Shown: in pieces, positions 2,557 through 64,000 of the stretch
How the letters are laid out: the number at the start of each line of letters is the position of its first letter
Position numbering within the stretch: the first letter of the stretch is position 1
Virus record (IMG/VR): IMGVR_UViG_3300030090_003995
Span: 23,980-87,979 of that record
Direction: 5' to 3' (one strand)
DNA: 64,000 bases
Source of the DNA: a virus
The notes under the pieces: model-generated
Databases searched by the model: none
What the model saw: only the letters and a program-made list of their open reading frames with translations
What the model was told of the DNA's origin: nothing
Made by a program: the position numbers and the translations under genes

Positions 2557-5500
2557 ATGACATTACTAAAAGCCTATCTAATGAATAAGCGTGACCCGTT
2601 TACATTAGCGAAGGCTTTCCTTGATGTGCTTAAAGATGAACAAGCATGGAGAGAAGAACAATTAGGTGAGTTAGGTGCAAAATATTTCAGTGATGCGATG
2701 GAGTTTTATGAAGATGAACTTGCTGAAATCAATGGTAAGATTGTAGAAAATAATTCTAAAATTAAAGAGATTAGAACAAGACTTGCCCCTAATTATACTT
2801 TTGAAGATAAAATTGAGTATGAGGGTCCAGATGGTGAAACCTTTATTCGTAGAGAAACTAGAGGTCTTACTGATGAAGAATCTAATTTGGAGCGTTTAGA
2901 ACTAGAAAGTGCTGAATCTCTTAATAATGATTATGCTGAAATAAGGGAGTCTGTCAACGGTCACTTATCTGATTTAACTACACACTATACTAATTTAACA
3001 GGTGAGGAATACGATAGAAGTGATGAAAATAAAATACGTTTGACCTTAAAGGGGTTAAAAATATTAGCAGATAGAATAGATGATTTAGGTGAAATTAAGC
3101 CACCCGATTCTATAAAACAATTGGATGCTAATTTAGAAAATGCTAAGAAACTTTACGAAAGGTCATTAGAAGAATTAAAATCAGATTTACAGGAAAAAAA
3201 TGCTCCCCAAGATATTATTACTAATGCAACTGCTAAATTAAAACGCAAGTTTGATACAAAAATGTCTACATTAGAATCATCAAGAAGTGGTATGTCTAAG
3301 AGTTATGAATCTTTACTATCTCAAAAATATAAACTTGAACAAAGAATTATTAGAGGAAAAAAAGATTTAGAAAGAATGGGTATTGATGTAAAGGAATACG
3401 GCCCGAAATATTCAAAAGAATCAGACTTTAAAAAACCACAGTCTAAACCTGAAACAGCGGAAGAGAAGAAGGCTAGAGAAGAAAAAGAAGAACAGGAAAA
3501 TCTTGAAAGAAGAATAGATTTGAAAAAACAAGCGTTAGTCCGTTTAGCAAAAAGAGCCCTTGAATGGGAAAAACAAGGTTTTATTCCTGGCCCTAAATAC
3601 AAAGCGGGAAGAAGAAAAACTACGGGAAAATTAGATAGAGATTATGCTCGCCCAATTAAAAGTGGAAAATACAAAGGCATTACCCTTAAAGGCGATGAGG
3701 TAGAATTAGATGCAAAAATGACTAAACTGGTAAATGATAGCAATATTGGTGTCAATGAACTTATTAGTCAGGTTAATAAACTTAATCCAAATTTAACTAT
3801 TTCTCTTCCTGAAACACAAAAAACTGTTGACGTAAAGAGGGATATTAGAGGGCTTCCAATAAGAGATAAGGATGGGAATGAAATACCAGTTAAATTTGGT
3901 GAAAATAAACCATACACTCAAGAAGAAATATCTCGCGCTAAGAGTCAAGAACAGAAAGAATATATGGTGCGTATGAATAATTTAGGTATCGGTAAGGGAA
4001 AAAGAAAAGTTAAACAAACCGCTGGTAATTTAAAAAATTGGAAAGAGTGGAGAGAAGAGTTTTCAAGAGTAGTAAGTGATGAAAATCTTCAATTAATGCG
4101 CAACCAATTAAATGATTTCTTTAAAGATTTAGACCCTGAAGTTATGCGTTTATTTGATAAAGATGCACATTCCACTGACACTACTAGATTTGGTTTGGCA
4201 TCAAGCAAAGAAGGTTCAGATGGTAACATTAAATGGACTAAACATGTTAGCAGAAGAAAAACATTACAAATATTAGGTAAGATTTTTTCTGAGGCACTAA
4301 GGACTGATATTTTATCTGATATACAAAAAGTTAATGCAGAGAAAATTCTGAATGCTATTGACGAGGAGTTAGGGATTTCTGGCGGAAAACAAATTAGAGA
4401 ACAACCGGTTGCTGACCAGCAAGTTACTAATATGATGGAATTACTACAAGATTTTTATGATGAGACTCAAATTCTTTTAGAATCTGATACTGATGATGAA
4501 TGGAATGAAGAACCAGTTGAAAGGTTAGAAGATTTAACTGAAGAAGTTGCACAATTATTACAGGATATGGATGAAGAAAATCCTTCACAAGAAGATTATG
4601 TTAATTTATTAATTAGATACCATTTAATAAATGTCACAATTAGGGAATTGGGTAGAGAATTACCAAATCAAGCCTTACAAGCAAAACGTTCTTTAAGAGA
4701 ATATTTAGATTCATTAGAGAATAGATATGAAGATATGTATGGTAATATTGCTGATGATAAGTTACAATCTTTGCAACGTCTTGCTCAAGATTCAACTGAT
4801 TCCGAAGAAGATAAAAGAAAATTAGAACAAGAAATTAGAAGAACATCTACTAAAACTTCTTGGAAACCACCTAAAGGTTATCATGATAAAGATGATACTG
4901 TTAGAAGAAGAGAAAGGGTAAAATTACATAAAGCAGAATTACAGATGCATATTGATATATTTAAACGGTTATCTGAAGGTGGAGAGGTAAAGATAACTAA
5001 ACCTATTAGACACCCTGACCAAACTGATAAAGAATATGCAGAAGCAAAACGTAGGTTTGAACCTAAAGTAATTTCAGGTAAAAAAATTCCTAAAAGGCAA
5101 GGTAATCAAAGACCTCTAAAACAGTTAGCAGAAATGGTAATTCCTAAATTTAAAGTGGATATGGAAAAATCTAGACAAAAGCGATTGTATGGTAAAATTT
5201 TAACTCAAGAACGTATTGATGGTATTAGAAATAATTTGGTTGCAGAATTAGGAAGAGGTGAAGAAGTTGATATTGAGAATTTTGATAGTTTATATTCTTC
5301 AGCGGTAGATATTATAGGGCCAAAATCTTATACTGATAGATATAAACAGGTTAAGACTCTAACAGGTAAAGAATTAGAACAACTTGGTTTAGAGGATGTT
5401 AAAGAAGAGTTTTTAGCAAGAAGAGTTAGAGGTGAAGGTACTGATGACGAAGAATTTATTCCTGATTCTGAAATTAGTGATGCCGATGAATTTGATGCCG

Positions 5501-5937
5501 CTAATACATTAATGGACCAAGCAACTGCTATGGTTATGAATTACAAAGATGACGATGGTAAGATTGTTGAAATACCTGAAGATGCAGCGCCTTATTTAGA
5601 AATAGTAGAACAACGATTTAAACAGGCTAGAGATGAGGCTTTAAAGGTTCAAGCAGAAAGTGAAGATGATGAACTTCCTAAAGAGTTCCGTTCTAAATCT
5701 GGCACAACAATTAATTTTGATGAGTGGTTACAAAATATAGAATCGGCAAAGGCTGAAGCGCAATCTAAGAAGTTAGATGAAAGAAAATATGGTGAAGATA
5801 AAAAGGTTAAGAGAAAACCTAAGAGACCTGTTGTTAAATTACCAGAAACAAGAACAATTGATGAAGAGAGAGAAAGAGGAGAAAATTTGTTAGACCCTTC
5901 AATTCTAAGAAGACCTGAACAGGAGGAAGAAGAATGA
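2557..5937 (+). CDS. very large charged coiled-coil head-module protein, 1126 aa
   Basis: No domain is recognised. The protein is extremely rich in Glu, Lys, Asp and Arg, with long heptad-like helical stretches (about residues 40-330 and 620-800) and many EEK/KKR runs, and a short, nearly domain-free C-terminus ending in EEEE. I chose ATG 2557 because GGTGAGTAAA stands directly before it. A GTG four codons upstream at 2545 overlaps the ribosome site. Lying between portal and capsid genes, it could be a core, internal or ejected head protein, or a scaffold-associated protein. It is one of the largest genes in the window. Confidence 0.75.
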   Translation: MTLLKAYLMNKRDPFTLAKAFLDVLKDEQAWREEQLGELGAKYFSDAMEFYEDELAEINGKIVENNSKIKEIRTRLAPNYTFEDKIEYEGPDGETFIRRETRGLTDEESNLERLELESAESLNNDYAEIRESVNGHLSDLTTHYTNLTGEEYDRSDENKIRLTLKGLKILADRIDDLGEIKPPDSIKQLDANLENAKKLYERSLEELKSDLQEKNAPQDIITNATAKLKRKFDTKMSTLESSRSGMSKSYESLLSQKYKLEQRIIRGKKDLERMGIDVKEYGPKYSKESDFKKPQSKPETAEEKKAREEKEEQENLERRIDLKKQALVRLAKRALEWEKQGFIPGPKYKAGRRKTTGKLDRDYARPIKSGKYKGITLKGDEVELDAKMTKLVNDSNIGVNELISQVNKLNPNLTISLPETQKTVDVKRDIRGLPIRDKDGNEIPVKFGENKPYTQEEISRAKSQEQKEYMVRMNNLGIGKGKRKVKQTAGNLKNWKEWREEFSRVVSDENLQLMRNQLNDFFKDLDPEVMRLFDKDAHSTDTTRFGLASSKEGSDGNIKWTKHVSRRKTLQILGKIFSEALRTDILSDIQKVNAEKILNAIDEELGISGGKQIREQPVADQQVTNMMELLQDFYDETQILLESDTDDEWNEEPVERLEDLTEEVAQLLQDMDEENPSQEDYVNLLIRYHLINVTIRELGRELPNQALQAKRSLREYLDSLENRYEDMYGNIADDKLQSLQRLAQDSTDSEEDKRKLEQEIRRTSTKTSWKPPKGYHDKDDTVRRRERVKLHKAELQMHIDIFKRLSEGGEVKITKPIRHPDQTDKEYAEAKRRFEPKVISGKKIPKRQGNQRPLKQLAEMVIPKFKVDMEKSRQKRLYGKILTQERIDGIRNNLVAELGRGEEVDIENFDSLYSSAVDIIGPKSYTDRYKQVKTLTGKELEQLGLEDVKEEFLARRVRGEGTDDEEFIPDSEISDADEFDAANTLMDQATAMVMNYKDDDGKIVEIPEDAAPYLEIVEQRFKQARDEALKVQAESEDDELPKEFRSKSGTTINFDEWLQNIESAKAEAQSKKLDERKYGEDKKVKRKPKRPVVKLPETRTIDEERERGENLLDPSILRRPEQEEEE

Positions 5938-6287
5938 GTTGGAAAAAGATATTAAAATTTCAATCTGACGGTTTAGATGAACATAATGTGGATGAACTTC
6001 TTGTTCATCCAATTGAGCGATTAGGTTTCCGATTACAAACGAATGAGTCATATATAGTTGGTGATAATCCAGAATCAGGAGAAGCCGGATGGAATACCGG
6101 ACAGTATTCTTTGGATTTTGCCCACACAACAGGAACGCGATATACTGTAAAAAGGACACATATACGTGCTACCCCCACATCTCCCCAATATTATATTTTT
6201 AGGGGTAATGAGGGAATTGTTGGTAAACCTTTCAATTATATAGAAGTAGTAGATTGGTTTGAACACGAAGCGGAGAGTTTATCATGA
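5934..6287 (+). CDS. tagged head-module protein, 117 aa (MSWKKILK)
   Basis: It starts with the MSWKKILK tag, followed by a compact region with several aromatic residues and likely beta strands (GWNTGQYSLDF, GTRYTVKRTH, QYYIFRGNEG). The ATG overlaps the previous stop (ATGA). It looks like a small folded domain carried behind a common N-terminal tag. The function is unknown. Confidence 0.7.
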   Translation: MSWKKILKFQSDGLDEHNVDELLVHPIERLGFRLQTNESYIVGDNPESGEAGWNTGQYSLDFAHTTGTRYTVKRTHIRATPTSPQYYIFRGNEGIVGKPFNYIEVVDWFEHEAESLS

Positions 6288-6616
6288 CGTGGTTTGAAGT
6301 AATTAAAGAAGATAGTCCGGCTTTGGCTAGTCTATCACAAAAAGAAAAAAAGAAACTCAAAAAGGTTTTGCAAGCAGCCGAACCTTCAGAATACTTTGGT
6401 CAAGACTTTACAAGAATGGGAGAATTGATTGAATTAATGAGAGAATTAGATTTGGTTAAGGGAGATAAAAAAATGCAAAAGAAAATGAAATCTATTTCTG
6501 AGCAAAATGTAGATGTTGTCGCTATGGCTGCTAAATTGCGAAAAGAATATGAAGAAATGTATAGACAACTTCGACAAATTGTATATCCTAAAAGCAAGGG
6601 GTTGAGAAAGAAATGA
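6284..6616 (+). CDS. tagged head-module protein, 110 aa (MTWFEVIK)
   Basis: It begins MTWFEVIK, a variant of the shared tag. The body is helical and very basic (KEKKKLKKVLQ, KKMQKKMKS) and could bind nucleic acid or another head protein. It overlaps both neighbours by four bases (ATGA), so it is translated as part of a coupled string. No family is recognised. Confidence 0.7.
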   Translation: MTWFEVIKEDSPALASLSQKEKKKLKKVLQAAEPSEYFGQDFTRMGELIELMRELDLVKGDKKMQKKMKSISEQNVDVVAMAAKLRKEYEEMYRQLRQIVYPKSKGLRKK

Positions 6617-6876
6617 GTTGGGAAAATATAATTAAAATGAGAAGAATTATTCCTGAAGTAGAGGAAGTCATGCCCTATTATAATGGGTTAGATGAATTAC
6701 TCACTATGGTTAAAAAAGATATGGAAGAAGTTGTAAGTTTTATTATGAATGATGATTTAGAAAGGGCCGAAATTAAGTGGGATAAAATGAAAGGAGGCAT
6801 TCTCGATTTAGAAGGAACCTTTACTGGAATTAAAGACGTTAATGCGTTTATTACTAGATTATTAGGTGATGCTTAA
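6613..6876 (+). CDS. tagged head-module protein, 87 aa (MSWENIIK)
   Basis: It carries MSWENIIK at the N-terminus, then an all-helical acidic body (DELLTMVKKDMEEVVSF and similar). Four-base overlaps link it to both neighbours. The function is unknown. Confidence 0.7.
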   Translation: MSWENIIKMRRIIPEVEEVMPYYNGLDELLTMVKKDMEEVVSFIMNDDLERAEIKWDKMKGGILDLEGTFTGIKDVNAFITRLLGDA

Positions 6877-7022
6877 TGAGTAAAATGGATTTCGCTAAAG
6901 CGAATAAAGAACTTAGACATCATATTATTTTAATGCTTGACCATTTTGATAATCAAGATGAAGAAGGTTGGAACAAACTACTTAAAATTGCAAGATTTGT
7001 GGTGGAGGTAGATTATAAATGA
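6876..7022 (+). CDS. small helical protein, 48 aa
   Basis: ATG 6876 shares a base with the preceding TAA, and the TGA overlaps the next ATG. The protein is short, helical and charged. Its start MSKMDFAKAN is a weak echo of the tag, without the tryptophan at position 3. It is kept because the coupling on both sides is exact. The function is unknown. Confidence 0.55.
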   Translation: MSKMDFAKANKELRHHIILMLDHFDNQDEEGWNKLLKIARFVVEVDYK

Positions 7023-49537: not shown

Positions 49538-50742
49538 CCAGTGTAGGTTTCGCCACTATCTTGTGTTGTAGAGGGAGAACCATGCTTATCCAATACAATT
49601 ACACCAAATACATTGATGCTACATTGTCGCATTTCCCCAGTCTCTTGATTTTGTGACTGATTTGAACGACCGATAACCAAAATTTGGCTACCAATTCCAA
49701 AGTCCAAATCAACGTGTTCAGGAACCCAACATGGAGTTGCACCTTGCGGATTGTCGTAATCAAATTCAGAATTCAAATCTGAAATATACAATGTGCGATT
49801 TCCATTAGAGTTTGGGTTCATATACATATTTGTTACCGTTCCATCTGTAACAACAAGACGTTCCTTAGCAGGGCGATTCTTATTATTCACATGGTAATTT
49901 TCCAAATTAATTAATGGGCAAACAAATCCTCGCATATTTTCTGCAATCAGAGTTTGCAGATTATGGTTCGCAGGTTGTGGGTTCTCCAATTCATCATTAT
50001 ACATGATGGTTTCCAAATTTGGAGCATATAGATTTCCACTATCCAAATGGTCTTGAGTAGCAAATACATCAATGTAAACTGCTCGCTCGTTATCAACATT
50101 CCAATTCTTTGCCTTGTCACCCTTTAGACCAATTCTCCAATATTGAGTCTCCTTTCCTTCAAGGGAACCAATAAAGTGTACCCCTCGCTGAAAATTATTC
50201 AACGGTTTAGGATGACCATACTTCTTGTTTTCTTTACCAAACAGGAATTTTTGGTCATCAATAGGAACAATCAAATTTCCATTTACTTCCATTACAGATT
50301 CAGGAAGTTCAGTATTATTCAAAGGTCGGGTCAATACTTCATTATCCATAACTTGACTAACTTCATAGCCTGTTTCTGTTTTACGCAGACGCGCATATTT
50401 TCCGGCATTGAAAGTAGTGTTCTCATCACGAATAATTGCAGCCTTTAATTGGTCACGATTATATTGTTCAAAGTCTCGCAAATCCTCAACCGCAACAACA
50501 TATCCAAAAACGGTGTGATTATCATTACCTTTATTAGATTGTGTGGGTTCTACGCCTGTGTCCAATACTCGCTTTTTTCCAGCAAACCATTGTCTAAATA
50601 GAGTGATAGCAATTTGATTTTGCTCATCACCTAATCCATTTGTGGACTTAATTTCATTCCATTTTTCTTCAATTGCAGACAATTCCATATTTAGAATTCC
50701 TGCCGCTTTTGTCAGTTCATTTCTCACATTTTCATCGTTCAT
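49528..50742 (-). CDS. RPA-like single-stranded DNA-binding protein, 404 aa
   Basis: The strand-rich regions (YWRIGLKGDKAKNWN ... AVYIDVFATQD, and RLVVTDGTVTNMYM to RTLYISDLNSEF) suggest OB folds, and the protein ends in an acidic-hydrophobic tail (DSGETYTGWF), common in SSBs for partner binding. It is encoded between RFC and Sak4. GGTGAAAAA precedes ATG 50742. The call is from composition, tail and context, without a visible Cys finger. Confidence 0.6.
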   Translation of the reverse strand: MNDENVRNELTKAAGILNMELSAIEEKWNEIKSTNGLGDEQNQIAITLFRQWFAGKKRVLDTGVEPTQSNKGNDNHTVFGYVVAVEDLRDFEQYNRDQLKAAIIRDENTTFNAGKYARLRKTETGYEVSQVMDNEVLTRPLNNTELPESVMEVNGNLIVPIDDQKFLFGKENKKYGHPKPLNNFQRGVHFIGSLEGKETQYWRIGLKGDKAKNWNVDNERAVYIDVFATQDHLDSGNLYAPNLETIMYNDELENPQPANHNLQTLIAENMRGFVCPLINLENYHVNNKNRPAKERLVVTDGTVTNMYMNPNSNGNRTLYISDLNSEFDYDNPQGATPCWVPEHVDLDFGIGSQILVIGRSNQSQNQETGEMRQCSINVFGVIVLDKHGSPSTTQDSGETYTGWF

Positions 50743-56260: not shown

Positions 56261-56501
56261 CATTCTCACCATTAAATAAGTTAGGCCAGATTTCACCAAA
56301 TGCAGAATTTACATCGGTTACTAAAATTCTTTGTGGACCTTCGCCCCATCTTCTCCCCTTTGCATCTTGCGCTCTTTCCGCAAGAAACACCATCAACGAT
56401 TCAATATTTGCGATGAATGTTTTCTTTGCACCGCTTGTCCATTGGTCATTACTCTTCGATTTCTTTATTATTCTCTTCATTTCTAGTTCGCTCACCATCA
56501 T
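56253..56501 (-). CDS. histone-fold protein, 82 aa
   Basis: The full length fits an archaeal-type histone: helix 1 SELEMKRIIKKSK, a long helix from TSGAKKTFIANIESL through LAERAQDAK, and the loop plus helix 3 QRILVTDVNSAF, parallel to the usual rKTvtaeDv. The loop between helices 2 and 3 is longer than normal (GRRWGEGPQ). It would bind or wrap DNA, alone or with the 165-residue candidate. Its start lies 53 bases inside the PC4 gene in another frame. The fold assignment is by pattern only. Confidence 0.6.
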   Translation of the reverse strand: MMVSELEMKRIIKKSKSNDQWTSGAKKTFIANIESLMVFLAERAQDAKGRRWGEGPQRILVTDVNSAFGEIWPNLFNGENDE

Positions 56502-56694
56502 TAATCCTCCCTAATATGTTTGCCAAATGTCTTAATTCTGTCATGTTAATCCTAATACCCTTCCGCGTAGGTTTACCATCCTTATGCCAACGAATATCTA
56601 CAATAGGAATATTCCAATATTTACCAGTTTTTATTAGTATTTCTTCCGTCGCTGTTCTTGGAATGCGACCTCTCACTTCAAAATCATCAGCCAA
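56449..56694 (-). CDS. PC4-like single-strand DNA-binding coactivator, 81 aa (TTG start)
   Basis: The central pattern PIVDIRWHKDGKPTRKGI followed by a helix (NMTELRHLANIL) is the PC4 fold signature (strands, then KDGxxKPTRKGI, then helix). Such proteins bind melted DNA and assist transcription or replication. It starts at TTG 56694, eight bases after GGTGA, overlapping the GroEL stop. Its acidic C-terminal codons overlap the histone-like gene. Confidence 0.75.
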   Translation of the reverse strand: MADDFEVRGRIPRTATEEILIKTGKYWNIPIVDIRWHKDGKPTRKGIRINMTELRHLANILGRINDGERTRNEENNKEIEE

Positions 56695-58249
56695 AGTATT
56701 TCACCTCACCTTCATCAAAATCCTCACCAACTAAAACTTCAGTGGTAAATACTAATCCCGCGATAGAAGCCGCAGTAACTAATGCACTTTTTGTAATCTT
56801 AACAGGGTCTAAAATTCCCGCTTCCCACATATCAGTGTAAACATCATTCTTTGCATCGTAACCATCACGTTTTGATAAATGGCTATAACTCAATTCATGC
56901 CCTGAATTTTCTGCTAATTGTCTAATAGGTGCTTTTAATGCTGAACGTACAATAGAACAGAGGCCTTTCGAGAAATCATCATTTACACAATTCCAAAGTG
57001 CTAATCCGCCACCAACAACAATTCCTTCTTGAAGTGCCGCCTTTGTCGCATTTAAAGCATCATCCAACCTTTCTTTAGTTTCTCGAATTTCAATATCGGT
57101 TGAACCTCCAACCTTAATCAATGCTACACCACCCAAAAGTCTACCTATTCGCTTATGTAATTTTTCTTTAAACCACTCATTAGTTTGTGATTTCATTTGG
57201 TTAGATAATTCTTTAGCGCGAGCAGTAATGTTTTCGCTTTCCTCATCTGTTGAATCGTGAATCATAGTAGTAGATAATTGACCAATTTTAACTTTATCAA
57301 CAACACCCAAATCTTCTAACTTCACATTAGAAATCTTCATTCCCAAATCAGCATTGAATACAGTACCCCCAATCATTGATTGAATATCCTTTAGAATTTC
57401 TACCTGCTCATCACCAAAGTCTGGAGTTTTCATAGCACACGCATTTACAATCTTATTATGCACATTTGCTAACAAATTAGGAAACGCGGTCCCTTCCAAT
57501 TCTTTACACATAATTAACAAAGGTTTCTTTTCTGACATAGAAATCTCTAGGGCCGGAAGCAATTCGTTAATGTTATTGATAGTCTCATTAGACATTAACA
57601 CCAAACAATTACTAAACTCACAATGAGTACCCTCTTCATTGTTAATCATAAGGTGACTCATATATCCTGAATCCAATTCCATCCCTTCAATAATATCAAA
57701 AGTGGTATCCAGACTTTGACCGTTCTCAATAGAAATAATTCCGTCACGACCAACCTTTTCTACAATATCAGCAATCAATACACCCAATTTAGAATCGTTG
57801 TTTGCGGCAATTGTAGCGACACCCTCTAATTCTTCTCGACCTTTGATTTTTGTAGCCATGCCATCTAATTTTTTCAAAACCAATCTAACATCACTATCCA
57901 TCATTTTCTTTAAATCGACAGGATTTTCTCCATCCTTTACCGCCGCTAATCCATAATGACATAATTGTTGAGCCATAATTGTTGCAGTAGTTGTACCATC
58001 CCCACTATTTTCTTGTGCTTGGGCGGCAACTTCTTGCATTAATTCTACACCCATTTGAACAAATTCATCATCAGATTTAATCGCCTTAGCAATAGTCACA
58101 CCATCATTAATTACGACAGGTTTACCATTCTGCTTAATTACCACTGTTCTTGCTTGTGGCCCCAATGTACATTTAATTGTGTTAGCCACTAAATTAATAC
58201 CATCCATTAGTGCATCTCTAGCCTCTTCATCATATAATATTTCACCCAT
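56687..58249 (-). CDS. groEL: group I chaperonin (GroEL-like), 520 aa
   Basis: Unmistakable GroEL signatures are present: GDGTTTAT (83-90, catalytic Asp), GGSTDIEIRETKERLDDA, ALQEGIVVGGGLAL, and TKSALVTAASIAGLVFTTE near the end. The usual GGM-repeat tail is missing. It forms a folding cage with the GroES encoded just upstream. ATG 58249 follows GGAGGAATAATT. It is a group I (bacterial-type) rather than the archaeal group II chaperonin. It likely folds the viral capsid or replication proteins. Confidence 0.95.
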   Translation of the reverse strand: MGEILYDEEARDALMDGINLVANTIKCTLGPQARTVVIKQNGKPVVINDGVTIAKAIKSDDEFVQMGVELMQEVAAQAQENSGDGTTTATIMAQQLCHYGLAAVKDGENPVDLKKMMDSDVRLVLKKLDGMATKIKGREELEGVATIAANNDSKLGVLIADIVEKVGRDGIISIENGQSLDTTFDIIEGMELDSGYMSHLMINNEEGTHCEFSNCLVLMSNETINNINELLPALEISMSEKKPLLIMCKELEGTAFPNLLANVHNKIVNACAMKTPDFGDEQVEILKDIQSMIGGTVFNADLGMKISNVKLEDLGVVDKVKIGQLSTTMIHDSTDEESENITARAKELSNQMKSQTNEWFKEKLHKRIGRLLGGVALIKVGGSTDIEIRETKERLDDALNATKAALQEGIVVGGGLALWNCVNDDFSKGLCSIVRSALKAPIRQLAENSGHELSYSHLSKRDGYDAKNDVYTDMWEAGILDPVKITKSALVTAASIAGLVFTTEVLVGEDFDEGEVKYFG

Positions 58250-58251
58250 AA

Positions 58252-58485
58252 TTATTCCTCCGTATACATTACATCTTGCCAATGAATACAAATATATCCA
58301 TTCATTGGTAGCGCAGACCTATGTTGTTTGTAATAAACTTTCTTACCTATCAGAGTTTTAAATTCTTCCGGGCATTCCTCACCGATAGAAATTACTTTCA
58401 TCGCCGCACCCTGATTAGTCACAATTCCAGACTCAGTAGTTTCTTCAACATGAGCCATTACTACCCAATTTCCATACGCTCTCAT
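58252..58485 (-). CDS. groES: co-chaperonin (GroES-like), 77 aa
   Basis: The GroES pattern is visible: a mobile loop TTESGIV, a V-I-S-I-G strand pair, GKKVYYKQHRSALP and a final VMYTEE. It is about 20 residues shorter than typical GroES. The gene lies directly before groEL and overlaps the upstream gene as ATGA. It caps the GroEL ring. Confidence 0.85.
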   Translation of the reverse strand: MRAYGNWVVMAHVEETTESGIVTNQGAAMKVISIGEECPEEFKTLIGKKVYYKQHRSALPMNGYICIHWQDVMYTEE

Positions 58486-58640: not shown

Positions 58641-58773
58641 TAAAACCACCACTCTCTTCATTTGTGTAACCACACTTACGACATTTCCAAAAATATACAA
58701 ATTGGACTTGTCTACCGTCATAACTTCTATCATGCTCTTCTCGCATATTTGCACCACACATAGGACACCTCAT
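58630..58773 (-). CDS. zinc-knuckle protein, 47 aa
   Basis: CPMC and CRKC pairs 29 residues apart define a zinc ribbon. ATG 58773 overlaps the JAMM-gene stop (ATGA). Its end reaches 11 bases into the next gene. The function is unknown, perhaps nucleic acid or regulatory binding. Confidence 0.55.
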   Translation of the reverse strand: MRCPMCGANMREEHDRSYDGRQVQFVYFWKCRKCGYTNEESGGFNEY

Positions 58774-59228
58774 TCTTCTTCACCTCCGACCCAATCAGGA
58801 ATTTCTACTCTTTGATAAAATACAGTTTGGGGTTCTCCCTTTCGCCATTCCATAGATTGATTGTCACCTAGAACAATTGCATAATTCATAATAGGTTCCC
58901 ACGTTTTAATTGTGTTCCAGTCTGTTCCTGAAAAATATGCTTGACCAAACGGATGAGTATGAATCCAACATTCGATAGGTAAAGTCATTCCCGTAGGTGG
59001 TTCTTTAAACCAAACAAATCCGGGGTCTCCGGCAGAAATATAAATATTCATCTTACCATCAATAACCACTTGCACTTCGCGCCCAATATCAAACGCGGTT
59101 AAACTCATTTCCCAAATAGTATCTAAGAAATTCTCGTCTACAAATTCAAAATTTCCATCAGCCCAAGCATTCTTAATCTGCTCTTCCCAATCTTCAATCT
59201 TCACTTCAATACTTTCACTTGACAACAT
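58770..59228 (-). CDS. JAMM/MPN+ metalloprotease (deubiquitinase-like), 152 aa
   Basis: The metal motif is complete: H90-x-H92-P, then S100-x-x-D103 (HTHPFGQAYFSGTD), the JAMM signature of enzymes that cut ubiquitin-like proteins from targets or process their tails. No tail-module partner is near. Instead it lies a few genes from an E1-like enzyme. It could remove host ubiquitin-like (SAMP) tags or protein marks set by host defence. The motif is firm and the substrate unknown. Confidence 0.85.
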   Translation of the reverse strand: MLSSESIEVKIEDWEEQIKNAWADGNFEFVDENFLDTIWEMSLTAFDIGREVQVVIDGKMNIYISAGDPGFVWFKEPPTGMTLPIECWIHTHPFGQAYFSGTDWNTIKTWEPIMNYAIVLGDNQSMEWRKGEPQTVFYQRVEIPDWVGGEEE

Positions 59229-59434
59229 TAAATAATCCCTCCAATATTGTTGGCAACATAAATTCCAACCAATACTACTATTACACCCACAAGGAAATAC
59301 TTCCCATTGGATTCTGATTCTTGCTTTGTTTTATATTGTTGCCAATCGTCATGGCTAATAAAACGTACTTTACCATTTTCATCCTTTACATAAGGTCTTC
59401 CATTCTTCGCAATAAACACTCTTTTATCATTCAT
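59228..59434 (-). CDS. C-terminal-anchored membrane protein, 68 aa
   Basis: A hydrophilic head of ~45 residues (KNGRPYVKDENGKVRFI) precedes a C-terminal span (YFLVGVIVVLVGIYVANNIGG). Start and stop overlap the neighbours. The function is unknown. Confidence 0.6.
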   Translation of the reverse strand: MNDKRVFIAKNGRPYVKDENGKVRFISHDDWQQYKTKQESESNGKYFLVGVIVVLVGIYVANNIGGII

Positions 59435-59651
59435 TTACATACACCACCGGATGGTCAAATGCTTTTCCGCATCCACAATGTCCTTCTCTTCTCCACTTTT
59501 TTCTTCCTTTGAAATCATAACCGTCAAAAATCATACCACGGCCTGTTATATACAGGGCATCAGGCGTTAAAGCCCAAAGTCTACCGCATCCTTTTTCCGG
59601 ACATTCCCATCTTACTAGTTTCTTATTTCTTCCTAATCCTTTCAATGTCAT
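59427..59651 (-). CDS. zinc-ribbon protein, 74 aa
   Basis: A CPEKGC and a later CGCG element suggest one zinc site. Basic N-terminus (LKGLGRNKKLVRW). I chose ATG 59651 following GGTGGTGTTAAA over ATG 59678. The end overlaps the downstream start by eight bases. It may bind nucleic acid. No family is recognised. Confidence 0.6.
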   Translation of the reverse strand: MTLKGLGRNKKLVRWECPEKGCGRLWALTPDALYITGRGMIFDGYDFKGRKKWRREGHCGCGKAFDHPVVYVNE

Positions 59652-59779
59652 TTTAACACCACCATAACCAATACACACAACGTGATAATATTCACCACAT
59701 TGACTGTAATAATAATTCTATTTGTTTTTTCTATCAGAACATTTAACTTCTCTAATAGAATATTTGTATCATCCATCAT
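59648..59779 (-). CDS. small membrane protein, 43 aa
   Basis: ATG 59779 (or 59776) begins a helix of ~20 charged residues, then a hydrophobic C-terminal span (IIITVNVVNIITLCVLVMVV). The TGA overlaps the next ATG. It lies between the E1-like gene and the zinc-ribbon gene. The function is unknown. Confidence 0.5.
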   Translation of the reverse strand: MMDDTNILLEKLNVLIEKTNRIIITVNVVNIITLCVLVMVVLK

Positions 59780-59781
59780 AC

Positions 59782-60354
59782 TCACACATTCACAACCTTA
59801 AAATCTGCTACATCATCTTTTGCAAAATATCGGTGAATCCATTCAGCACCCATACCTGCGGCAATTACATGAGAAAAATGTTGTCCTTCTGTTGAACCAT
59901 CCCATGAATCACCTTGACAACTAAATGAACCTTCAGGTCCGGCTAACAAAGTATCATGTTTGTTTTTATCAGCCCTGTAAGAAATGTAAGCACAATTTCT
60001 ACCCTGCGCTCTCAAATCTAACCATTTAACATTAGAGCGATAAAGTAACCGGCGCACATCTAAATTGTCAGCACAACAGACTACCAAATCATACCCTTTA
60101 ATTTGCTTCTCAGTTAAAATTGGATAAGAAATATGCCTTGTAACAGATTCATAATTCCAACTCATTACCGATGCTTTATTCATTTCGTTCTCTTTTGACT
60201 TAAAATTCTGATAAGTTAAATTCTTTTTCTCAACATTATCAGGGTCAGCCACAACCATATCATATACCTTTGTCTTATCTAGAAGCGGAATCAAGTAACT
60301 TCCAATTCCACCTGCACCAATCATCAACATCTTTCTATTCTTTTTTCCTTGCAT
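59782..60354 (-). CDS. E1/ThiF-like adenylyltransferase, 190 aa
   Basis: The Rossmann glycine loop is GAGGIGSYL (13-20). D37/D39 in ADPDNVEKKNL, K60 and CCADNLDVRRLL (with D96, N97, R101) are the ATP-handling residues of the ubiquitin-activating E1/ThiF/MoeB family. It is compact (190 residues against ~240 or more) and the usual NLxRQ reads NLTYQ. A cysteine at GSFSCQG could accept a thioester. It activates a ubiquitin-like or sulphur-carrier protein by adenylation. No such partner with a Gly-Gly end was found in the window. Confidence 0.8.
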   Translation of the reverse strand: MQGKKNRKMLMIGAGGIGSYLIPLLDKTKVYDMVVADPDNVEKKNLTYQNFKSKENEMNKASVMSWNYESVTRHISYPILTEKQIKGYDLVVCCADNLDVRRLLYRSNVKWLDLRAQGRNCAYISYRADKNKHDTLLAGPEGSFSCQGDSWDGSTEGQHFSHVIAAGMGAEWIHRYFAKDDVADFKVVNV

Positions 60355-61315
60355 TCTTATGCACTCCTTCTACAAATTCATCAAACGTCATTAGTGGGGT
60401 CCACTTATCAAAAACGTCTTCTCTCGTTAGATTAACTAACTTCAATACTGCTATTAGATTATTTCTCAGGGTTACTTCAGTAATATTACAAACGTCAGAA
60501 ATTTCCATCTGCGTTCTCAAAGAACCAGTTGGGTTCAACCTACCCGCTAAATAAATACAAGCGGCAACAAAACCAGTATTTGCGGTAACATATTTACTTT
60601 CAGCAATCTCAATCATTAACATAGTTAATTTTACTGAGGCACTTGTCAAGTCGTTATCTGCCCCCAACAAATTGCAATATTTTTGCACTTCATCAGGAAT
60701 ATTTCTTTGCGAGAGAATCCACGGCTTTCTAAAGAAAGTAGCAATTCTTCTTGCACTTTTAGCAACTTGTCTAGGATGTGCGCTATTTTTAGCACAAATT
60801 TCATCAATAGTCCTAGAAATACCATTATCCTTAAATGTGTAATATACTAAGGCCGCCGCTCTAACTTCCAACGACATTCCTGATAATATTCTTTCTCTTT
60901 GGGTTGTCTTATAGTTCCATAAAACTTGGTCTCTTAAACTTTTACCCGCACCAAATTCTGATGCCAACATATTACATAACACTAACCCCTTTGATAGATT
61001 TCTTTCATGTGTAGTTTTATGATTTATCGCGTGTGTTCTTCTTAAGATTCTCCCAATTTTTGAATTATCTCTCGAACCATCTAAGTTGGTCATTCCTACT
61101 ACACTTCCTAACACAAAACCCTCTTGTGTCGGATTATGTGTTCTTGGAGAATTTGGGTCGTTTGGTCTTTCTTTGCCAGATGAAGTTGCCTCTAACATTT
61201 CATCTTGTAACACAAAACCACAATCTTCACAATACAACTCACCTTTATTAGAGTCTAATTTTAGATTTCTAGAATTACATTCTGTACATTTCACAATATC
61301 TTCTACGTCGGACAT
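60335..61315 (-). CDS. tfb: transcription initiation factor B (TFB/TFIIB)
   Basis: An N-terminal zinc ribbon (C10, C13, C29, C32) is followed by the reader/linker region and two cyclin-fold repeats (residues ~120-320). TFB recruits RNA polymerase to promoters. A viral copy would let the host polymerase be steered to viral promoters. It overlaps the E1-like gene by 20 bases and the upstream small gene by one base. Confidence 0.92.
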   Translation of the reverse strand: MSDVEDIVKCTECNSRNLKLDSNKGELYCEDCGFVLQDEMLEATSSGKERPNDPNSPRTHNPTQEGFVLGSVVGMTNLDGSRDNSKIGRILRRTHAINHKTTHERNLSKGLVLCNMLASEFGAGKSLRDQVLWNYKTTQRERILSGMSLEVRAAALVYYTFKDNGISRTIDEICAKNSAHPRQVAKSARRIATFFRKPWILSQRNIPDEVQKYCNLLGADNDLTSASVKLTMLMIEIAESKYVTANTGFVAACIYLAGRLNPTGSLRTQMEISDVCNITEVTLRNNLIAVLKLVNLTREDVFDKWTPLMTFDEFVEGVHKNARKKE

Positions 61316-61491
61316 TATTCCATCTCCTCTATTTTGTAAATAGCCACTTGTCTTCGTATATTTGACATAACATCGGCTAATTCTCGTATGTCTTTTTCGG
61401 CTTCAACCCATGCTTCTTCGTCTTCACAAATAACAATAGCAGTTATTACCTTTCTAATTTTAGTTGTGTCTAAACCACTTGGCGTTTTCAT
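61315..61491 (-). CDS. hypothetical helical protein, 58 aa
   Basis: ATG 61491 overlaps the stop of the 404-residue gene (ATGA) and its TAA shares a base with the TFB start. The protein is mostly helix (EEAWVEAEKDIRELADVM). No family is recognised. Confidence 0.55.
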   Translation of the reverse strand: MKTPSGLDTTKIRKVITAIVICEDEEAWVEAEKDIRELADVMSNIRRQVAIYKIEEME

Positions 61492-62702
61492 TTATTAATC
61501 ACTCCTTGTAAATCTTTCATTGAAATATTAGGCAAATGTAATCTAGCCTCAGTTTGACCATCGTAATGGTTGTCACTTAAATAATGGCTAATTGTGCTAA
61601 CAATTTCAATCGTCATCTTATCATTCAGTAATGCAAATGCTCTGGCCGCAAATTGGTCACCCACTGATGAATGTTTGGTCATGTTATCAATACAAATTGG
61701 TCCTTTAAGGAAACCATCATCAAATGGTATTTGACGGTGACTATCACCAATATCAAAAACATAAGTCGATACTGCTTGAATTTCGCTCTTGAATTGGTTA
61801 TCAGTAATTACCCAATCTGCCATTTTACCTTTAACAATAATTGCCTTAACAGTGTTATTATCCCAAAACACTTTCATTCTATCCTTGTAAGTAACAGACA
61901 TATCCTTAACTAATTGATAGGCTCTTTTCTGCACTAACTCATCAGTCCTGTTTTGTTGTAGGAATGCAACCATCATATTTTCTTGGGCAGTAGTTGGTAC
62001 TTCACCAATAAGTCTATGCCACAACTTTTTAGGCGTTAATCTAGCCTTAAACCAAGAAGATGATTTTTGACCATGTAAATAATAATTCATGTAAGTATTC
62101 ATTTTCTTAATTGAAATTGGAGCCCAGATTCCATCTGAAATCTCCATAGCGCATTCATCCGGCCCAATCATTTTAACATTGAATCTGACTTCAACCTTTT
62201 TACCCTTAAGATACCAATGATAGGGCGCACGATTTTCTAGAGCATATGAAACATTTTCAGGTAAAAGTATATTGTTAAAACAATATTCTGCCAACTTCTG
62301 CACATCTTCTTCAAAACATGAACGGTAAATAGTTCTTGCTATTGCAGTAACGGCAGTATCTTTTGTAGTTATCATTCCTTGAATCATATATTTATTTCCA
62401 TCTTTATGACAATGAATCTTAGCACCATTAATTATAATGAACCCACTAAAACTTGGGCGACCCTTTTTACCCCAACCCAAATAAGAATTCACCCACATTT
62501 TAATTGCCTTAATTGTGGGTTCTCTGTCGTTTCGATAATGGTTTGGGTTGATGGTATTAGATTGGTAAGTATGGTATCTACGACTCCACGCACCATAATT
62601 TGGTGTTTGAAACCAAGTCATATTCTGACCTTCCACATCAATAGTGGTTTTATATTTTTTACCAGAATCATCTGGCGCATTAATTTCTAAATTTATACTC
62701 AT
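61488..62702 (-). CDS. hypothetical protein, 404 aa
   Basis: It is a mixed alpha/beta protein with several tryptophans and tyrosines (TWFQTPNYGAWSRRYHTY, WGKKGRPSFSGFIIINGAKI). No enzyme motif or known family was recognised. It lies between TFB and the zinc-knuckle gene and overlaps both neighbours. By size it is the largest unassigned protein of this half. Confidence 0.65.
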   Translation of the reverse strand: MSINLEINAPDDSGKKYKTTIDVEGQNMTWFQTPNYGAWSRRYHTYQSNTINPNHYRNDREPTIKAIKMWVNSYLGWGKKGRPSFSGFIIINGAKIHCHKDGNKYMIQGMITTKDTAVTAIARTIYRSCFEEDVQKLAEYCFNNILLPENVSYALENRAPYHWYLKGKKVEVRFNVKMIGPDECAMEISDGIWAPISIKKMNTYMNYYLHGQKSSSWFKARLTPKKLWHRLIGEVPTTAQENMMVAFLQQNRTDELVQKRAYQLVKDMSVTYKDRMKVFWDNNTVKAIIVKGKMADWVITDNQFKSEIQAVSTYVFDIGDSHRQIPFDDGFLKGPICIDNMTKHSSVGDQFAARAFALLNDKMTIEIVSTISHYLSDNHYDGQTEARLHLPNISMKDLQGVINK

Positions 62703-63483: not shown

Positions 63484-64000
63484 TTATCCACACTCAGAAT
63501 GTCCACATTTATCGCAGGTGGCGCAACCACCTTGAAATACCATATTGCCATCTTCACAAGTATGACAAGTTTCAGTATAGGGGTCATCACTTCTTGATGC
63601 AAATTCTTTTAGAACGTTTGAAATCTGTGCAACGGTTCCACGCATAGAACCCTTTGACTTCTCCAATTGCTCAATCAACTTATCAAGTGGGATATGATAC
63701 CTTAGACCCACTGAAATAAGTCTAGAAATGCTATCCAATTGCTCACGCCTTTGAGTGTGTTCAATTGTTGGCCGATTCAAATACGGATAGTTCACGAACA
63801 TCTCAATAGGAGTATTCTCATAATGAGATACAGTAATGTAAATGTATTCATCCTCAAGACCTTCAGCCGGTAATCGGAATCTAACTGCTTCGCTAATATC
63901 ATCTAAATCTTTAGGTTTAGTTTTACTTTCGCTAGTATTCAATACTTGAACCGACTTTGACCCATCACGATAAATAGTCACACCTTTACAATTATTCTCC
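63484..64000 (-). CDS. nrdJ: class II ribonucleotide reductase, C-terminal part (cut by window end)
   Basis: The open frame runs out of the right edge. What is visible is the C-terminal ~170 residues: CKGVTIYRDGSKS, a TSCPD-like domain (residues 90-140 of the visible part) and the closing GGCATCDKCGHSECG, which is the redox-active cysteine tail of vitamin-B12-dependent (NrdJ) reductases. It makes deoxynucleotides for virus DNA. It is the first gene seen of the - strand half. The rest of the enzyme lies outside the window. Confidence 0.85.
   Translation of the reverse strand, partial: ENNCKGVTIYRDGSKSVQVLNTSESKTKPKDLDDISEAVRFRLPAEGLEDEYIYITVSHYENTPIEMFVNYPYLNRPTIEHTQRREQLDSISRLISVGLRYHIPLDKLIEQLEKSKGSMRGTVAQISNVLKEFASRSDDPYTETCHTCEDGNMVFQGGCATCDKCGHSECG

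Follow-up and report, generated by a model that had tools for sequence, protein, structure and literature searches.

Uncultured viruses of the ocean, a large group that apparently infects archaea, carry three genes that by their sequences would encode a ubiquitin-like tag (Ubl), an E1-like enzyme to activate it, and a JAMM protease to trim or remove it. Two of the three, E1 and JAMM, lie within the DNA analysed here (64,000 nucleotides, hereafter ‘the window’), while the third is found in the relatives of this virus. There is perhaps an even chance that E1 and JAMM are two members of a three-gene, virus-encoded modifier module of the archaeal SAMP kind, driving a cycle of tagging that proceeds without an E2 enzyme.

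The viral genome and the genes around E1 and JAMM

The window is the right-hand part of an 87,979-bp IMG/VR record, and its genes are laid out in two opposed blocks. It encodes a portal, an S78 protease and an SU10-type capsid protein, together with PolB, an archaeal-type primase, an ATP-dependent ligase, TFB and a chaperonin. The Magrovirales are tailed viruses of marine Poseidoniales archaea, with a gene set that includes GroEL/GroES (PMC10768690). Because the gene content found here matches that published set (opposed modules, PolB, primase, ligase, TFB and GroEL/GroES, in a genome of about 90-100 kb), the virus is apparently a member of the Magrovirales with an archaeal host. The features of the region are as follows:

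56687-58291, minus strand: group I-like chaperonin (Cpn60; PF00118, 2e-43), common to the relatives
58252-58485, minus strand: small GroES-like reading frame, a co-chaperonin by position and appearance, with no match to Pfam GroES
58770-59228, minus strand: JAMM/JAB metalloprotease of 152 aa (E51, H90xH92P, S100, D103), recognised by motif, AlphaFold and Foldseek
59228-59434, minus strand: 68-aa reading frame with a hydrophobic C-terminal stretch (possible transmembrane segment), overlapping the start of JAMM; close relatives only
59427-59678, minus strand: 83-aa Cys-rich reading frame between E1 and JAMM, with no Pfam match; close relatives only
59648-59785, minus strand: 45-aa reading frame between E1 and JAMM with a hydrophobic C-terminal half (possible transmembrane segment); close relatives only
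59782-60354, minus strand: E1/ThiF-like adenylating enzyme of 190 aa, a minimal Rossmann domain (PF00899)
60335-61315, minus strand: TFB-like transcription factor (PF00382, PF08271), directly upstream of E1 and overlapping it
63484-63999, minus strand: C-terminal part of a ribonucleotide reductase, truncated where the contig stops

A TFB-like gene lies near E1 in most relatives. Just upstream of TFB, again in nearly all relatives, is a gene for a 404-aa protein (61488-62702, minus strand) with an invariant CxDN...S...DQ...R pattern and near-invariant NRxPY motifs; it was considered as an E2 or third partner, and was rejected as a demonstrated E2 because neither PDB nor Pfam yielded a relative, and profile comparison with gp78 and gp75 of crAss-like phages gave no match. 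Two further genes were recorded in passing. An 81-aa protein (56449-56694, minus strand), present in all 14 genomes compared, displays a RWxKDGKxTRKGIRxN pattern that resembles, by eye only, a PC4-type transcription cofactor, and a single tRNA-Ser (TGA) gene is located at 49721-49812 (minus strand), in the viral replication block.

An E1-like enzyme with an altered active site

The assignment of the gene at 59782 to the E1/ThiF family, made originally from its sequence, is borne out by a match to the PF00899 ThiF model (E=7.5e-14) that exceeds the curated cut-off. It had also been predicted that the ATP-site residues are kept, and most of them are: GAGGIGS, D37/D39, N45...Q49, K60 and D96-N97 are invariant in 14 relatives (S19 being only nearly so), as is the cysteine of a GSFSC(Q) motif. 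That prediction fails at one position, the conserved arginine of the NLxRQ motif, where the window reads NLTYQ and nearly all of 124 distinct relatives likewise carry tyrosine. In addition, only about six residues precede the first strand, and the alignment to MoeB begins at MoeB residue 32; the arginine-bearing N-terminal segment of MoeB-type E1s is therefore absent. With both of these arginine elements missing, adenylation by this enzyme is no more than putative.

These losses would fit an E1 that is a catalytically weak scaffold, or a redox-type Rossmann protein that does not adenylate, partnered by a JAMM acting as a simple maturase; other Rossmann families do match the protein, weakly. 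Such an outcome seems quite improbable, given the invariance of GxGGxG, D37/D39, N45, Q49, K60, D96 and the cysteine, and a dN/dS of only 0.11 against the nearest relative, which indicates purifying selection. Distant E1 proteins of crAss-like phages argue in the same direction: they are related to the viral E1 at the profile level (hhalign 98.5%, E=2e-15), they also lack the NxxRQ arginine (NMSGQ), and they carry a D-x-R motif like the DLRAQGR of the present enzyme. The latter is invariant, as DLRAQGRN, in the first 14 sequences aligned, and the pattern DLR[AS][QT]G is found in 121/124. Its arginine may stand in for the one lost from NxxRQ, and the comparison suggests that the viral and crAss-like enzymes form a subfamily with a relocated arginine.

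The JAMM protease

The gene at 58770 was originally said to possess a full JAMM motif, and it does: E51, H90-x-H92-P, S100 and D103 do not vary among 14 relatives, and the pattern H-x-H-P-x6-S-x2-D, which occurs once only across the six frames of the window, is found in 130/130 distinct homologues, so that at the level of the motif no member lacks the metal-binding residues. The protein falls below the Pfam cut-off (PF14464, E=9e-4). Its AlphaFold model (pLDDT 87.4), when submitted to Foldseek, returned PfJAMM1 first (5ld9/5lda), followed by Rpn11 and AMSH, with modest E-values (best 7.3e-3); PfJAMM1 is a protease that was solved with SAMP2. The gene evolves under purifying selection (dN/dS 0.17 against the nearest relative).

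Linkage of E1 and JAMM was followed with alignment-based scans that recovered 289 E1 contigs and 274 JAMM contigs, the best 80 of each being analysed. The scanned loci overlap in part, because two scans can retrieve the same contig, and reduce to 124 distinct sequences of E1 and 130 of JAMM. In all 154 loci that contain both genes, JAMM lies on the same strand as E1, at a position ranging from overlapping to 1.95 kb downstream; nine loci have one gene only, and in each of these the place of the partner lies beyond the available sequence. Thus the two genes, which the original prediction allowed might prove to be consistently separated in relatives, are never so, and in one divergent clade they abut or overlap. 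In the window they are separated by the three small reading frames listed above, within the ‘four genes or fewer’ first proposed. By itself this linkage is weak evidence and not decisive, as is that of E1, JAMM and Ubl together, because the gene order of the block is conserved in general.

Seven cellular relatives of E1 were retrieved from genome contigs, of which three are viral-like and four are ordinary, longer ThiF proteins. The three (L201, L202 and L203, from metagenome-assembled genomes that GTDB assigns to Maricaulis sp. and Altibacter sp.) combine a viral E1, at 53-56% identity, with a viral JAMM, and L202 carries a Ubl as well; they are probably mis-binned virus contigs.

A ubiquitin-like protein in the relatives

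A small beta-grasp protein, for which it had been proposed to look in relatives, was found by clustering the genes that flank E1 in 123 distinct loci. It is a family of 65-68 aa proteins, present in 88 of the 123 loci and in every one (82/82) of those whose upstream sequence extends for 5.5 kb or more. Counted from the Ubl, E1 is present in 76/80 loci and JAMM in 75/80, the exceptions being cut or split sequences, and each of 18 near-complete relatives has exactly one Ubl. Co-occurrence of the three genes is in this sense obligate, and the initial view of E1 and JAMM as the activation and removal arms of Ubl modification is strengthened, the pair being inseparable and provided with a beta-grasp partner. 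The genes are not adjacent (Ubl and E1 are 2.3-7.1 kb apart).

All 88 Ubls terminate in GG followed by zero to two residues; among 72 distinct sequences this ‘cap’ consists of two residues in 38, one residue in 25 and none (a bare GG) in 9. The AlphaFold model (pLDDT 83) is arranged as beta-beta-alpha-beta-beta-helix-beta with a flexible GG tail, which is the strand order of a beta-grasp fold. Nearly all of the best 50 PDB matches listed are of the ubiquitin, ISG15, SUMO, ThiS or MoaD type, with probabilities of up to 1.00 and modest Foldseek E-values (best 4.6e-3). The family is under purifying selection (dN/dS 0.06-0.11). At the level of sequence it is nearly invisible to existing models: only 5 of 49 Ubls give any match to Pfam ThiS, and in whole-genome scans of relatives that model gave no Ubl match while controls were detected. 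A resemblance to the PinA inhibitor family (PF10465; best 1.4e-4 over 49 members) was rejected as weak against the evidence of the fold.

The Ubls (L041:2074-2277 and 75 further distinct members) are nearly free of lysine beyond residue 6, with none at all there in 74% of members, and their lysine content (0.8%) is the lowest of 35 neighbouring families. Such a composition could prevent self-tagging. It was set aside as proof of conjugation, since it does not discriminate; ThiS of E. coli is likewise free of lysine.

Why this record has no Ubl

The original observation that no Ubl with a Gly-Gly end is visible in the window holds for the entire 87,979-bp record. The three small reading frames between E1 and JAMM were rejected as candidates, as they are not conserved in divergent relatives and do not end in GG, and so was a GG-ending family of reductases, all 55 members of which end in CAGGxCEI or similar, an ordinary Cys-tail.

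The absence is consistent with truncation of the contig. The genes of the nearest relative (L002) follow the order Ubl (4074-4277), a 150-aa reading frame, reductase (4746-6935), small genes, a 403-aa gene, TFB and E1, such that the Ubl lies 469 bp upstream of the reductase start and 5.7 kb upstream of E1. Because the edge of the window falls inside the same reductase gene (the fragment and L002:4746-6935 match over their final 60 residues), the spacing in L002 predicts a Ubl of this lineage at about 66,150-66,350, roughly 2.1 kb beyond where the contig stops. The reductase, which on our own reading is of the ribonucleotide reductase type, occurs beside the Ubl in at least two forms, one with a HSECG-type C-terminus (the window lineage) and one of the CAGGACEI type (many others). 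A comparison of L002:4746-6935 with L046:2368-4236 puts the two at about the same place, which suggests gene replacement.

A tagging cycle or a sulphur relay

In the cycle that we propose, the JAMM protease would first trim the cap from a beta-grasp Ubl of 65-68 aa ending in VGG plus zero to two residues, thereby exposing GG. The minimal E1 would then adenylate the C-terminal glycine of the Ubl with ATP and capture the protein, probably on the invariant cysteine of GSFSC. As no E2 or E3 was found, the Ubl might go straight onto lysine residues of proteins of the virus or the host (the targets being speculative), as in archaeal SAMPylation, and JAMM would later cleave the tag off again. In Haloferax, SAMPs depend on the E1-like protein UbaA, and HvJAMM1 is the protease that removes them (PMC4443979).

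The main rival is a sulphur relay. In it, JAMM would uncap a ThiS-like protein, and E1 would adenylate that protein and load its C-terminus as a thiocarboxylate, with the sulphur going to a small molecule or a tRNA; QbsE/QbsD and CysO/Mec+ are the precedents. The Ubl is of the size of ThiS, and its fold matches include ThiS (3cwi) and MoaD (6jbz). A capped GG together with a JAMM is typical of sulphur carriers too; 63 of 72 distinct Ubls are capped, and sulphur carriers that need a JAMM of the QbsD type have just such extensions, of one or two residues, behind their GG (PMC6006322). Bacterial clusters of ThiS/MoaD, JAB and E1 devoted to sulphur are also known (Iyer et al. 2006, PMC1779556). 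Against such a relay stand the partners searched for in the 18 near-complete relatives: rhodanese (PF00581), ATP_bind_3 of the TtuA/Ncs6 type (PF01171) and PALP of the CysM type (PF00291) were found in none, with controls that worked, and no sulphur client was recognised among the frequent neighbours of E1 loci (a host could provide the sulphur donor or client enzymes). E2 families (PF00179 and PF14461) were equally absent from all 18, although divergent E2s could escape such a search.

A second point concerns the 13 loci in which the Ubl already ends in a bare GG. The JAMM motif is intact in all of them; therefore uncapping is not the sole role of JAMM, and the simplest second role is removal of the tag from its targets, which would account for retention of the protease where no uncapping is called for, though chemistry like that of Mec+ could also account for it. 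The tagging cycle is preferred to the sulphur relay, which we regard as a real but distinctly less probable reading, because the parts list is that of SAMP, with neither an E2 nor the sulphur-transfer families. A dual role in tagging and sulphur transfer is possible by analogy, because in Haloferax a single E1 serves both outputs.

The original prediction had left three options side by side: reversal of a host defence mark, modification by the virus itself, or redirected sulphur transfer. Since these viruses supply a Ubl themselves, the latter two are now favoured. Counter-defence genes are often carried by viruses, and archaeal SAMP tags are known substrates for removal by JAMM enzymes, so that E1 and JAMM might be imagined to act mainly on SAMP- or Urm1-like tags of the host, either erasing a mark of defence or diverting the host modifier. 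That idea has little to recommend it when the viruses encode a Ubl that accompanies E1 and JAMM with no exception found, and when deconjugation alone does not require an E1.

One report describes modification and proteasomal turnover of the Haloferax transcription factor TBP2 (PMC4895103), and the position of a viral TFB beside E1 is, by that analogy, suggestive only.

Novelty and implications

No published description of a ThiF and JAMM pair in an archaeal virus or phage was found, and PMC10160649 makes no mention of one; an earlier annotation may exist in the magrovirus literature. It is conceivable, at somewhat less than even chances, that magroviruses encode every part of a self-contained, E2-less tagging system, from modifier through activator to remover, and use it in the course of infection on proteins of the host or the virus. 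As far as we found, no complete cycle of Ubl conjugation has been described for an archaeal virus before; this one would be the first, and its E1 would belong to a subfamily, found also in crAss-like phages, that has a replacement at the usual ATP-site arginine and another arginine motif. If so, an abundant group of ocean viruses imports its own ubiquitin-like pathway into archaeal cells, and it becomes testable whether viral tagging seizes host transcription, replication or proteolysis. The Ubl-E1-JAMM set (about 400 residues) would then also offer a compact means of studying E2-less conjugation by an E1 whose active site is altered. A Ubl family undetected by the Pfam ThiS model becomes annotatable in more than 200 viral contigs.

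Comparison with known systems

Kinship with the bacterial operons first suggested is not supported. Bil (BilABCD), CBASS Cap2/Cap3, PRTRC and 6a-type Ubl operons all pair an E1 with a JAMM, and the viral E1 weakly matches the PADLOC E1-E2 and NCBIfam PRTRC_ThiF models. The similarity is nevertheless only generic: the viral module does not qualify as Bil or CBASS because no E2 is detected and the E1 is a short, single domain of just 190 aa, and its Ubl is unrelated by sequence. Lambdoid TAPI/TAPK likewise combine a viral ubiquitin-like domain with a JAMM (JAB), but are located in a tail assembly cluster without an E1, whereas the magrovirus genes adjoin TFB, reductase and chaperonin rather than tail genes.

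The capped sulphur carriers (QbsE/QbsD/QbsC, PtmS2/PtmS1, CysO/Mec+ and HcyS/HcyD/HcyF) likewise have a ThiS-like protein, capped by one or two residues, linked to a JAMM and a ThiF-type E1. The viral module differs from them in having no detected sulphur-transfer or biosynthetic client family, and in keeping its JAMM where GG is exposed.

Among phages, an E1 also adjoins a JAMM in the gp76-gp79 operon of crAss-like phages (crAss001, DAC15, cr106_1 and bajarodcaudo virus). In Bacteroides phage crAss001 (gp75-gp79 at L038:2250-7472, with similar regions in L037, L039 and L040), gp76 is an E1 beside gp77, a JAMM-motif protein (Prok-JAB E=5e-4). By eye only, gp78 is E2-like (an HSH...PC motif, with an H..C signature) and the N-terminal half of gp79 is Ubl-like, with a conserved KKIKSG. 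The region may be a complete phage Ubl-conjugation operon; it remains a lead, because database searches with gp78 and gp79 gave no support to those readings. These phages differ from the magroviruses in their bacterial hosts, in the extra genes gp78 and gp79, and in having no sequence link to the magrovirus Ubl.

The counterpart favoured here is the archaeal SAMP system (SAMP1-3, UbaA and HvJAMM1, with the PfJAMM1-SAMP2 complex). The present module differs from it in being viral, in the clustering of its genes, in a Ubl that is usually capped by one or two residues, and in a minimal E1 that lacks the NxxRQ arginine; conjugation by the viral proteins is a prediction. What the two have in common is a Ubl ending in GG, a single E1 and a JAMM that would act together without an E2, a JAMM fold closest to that of PfJAMM1, and an apparently archaeal host.
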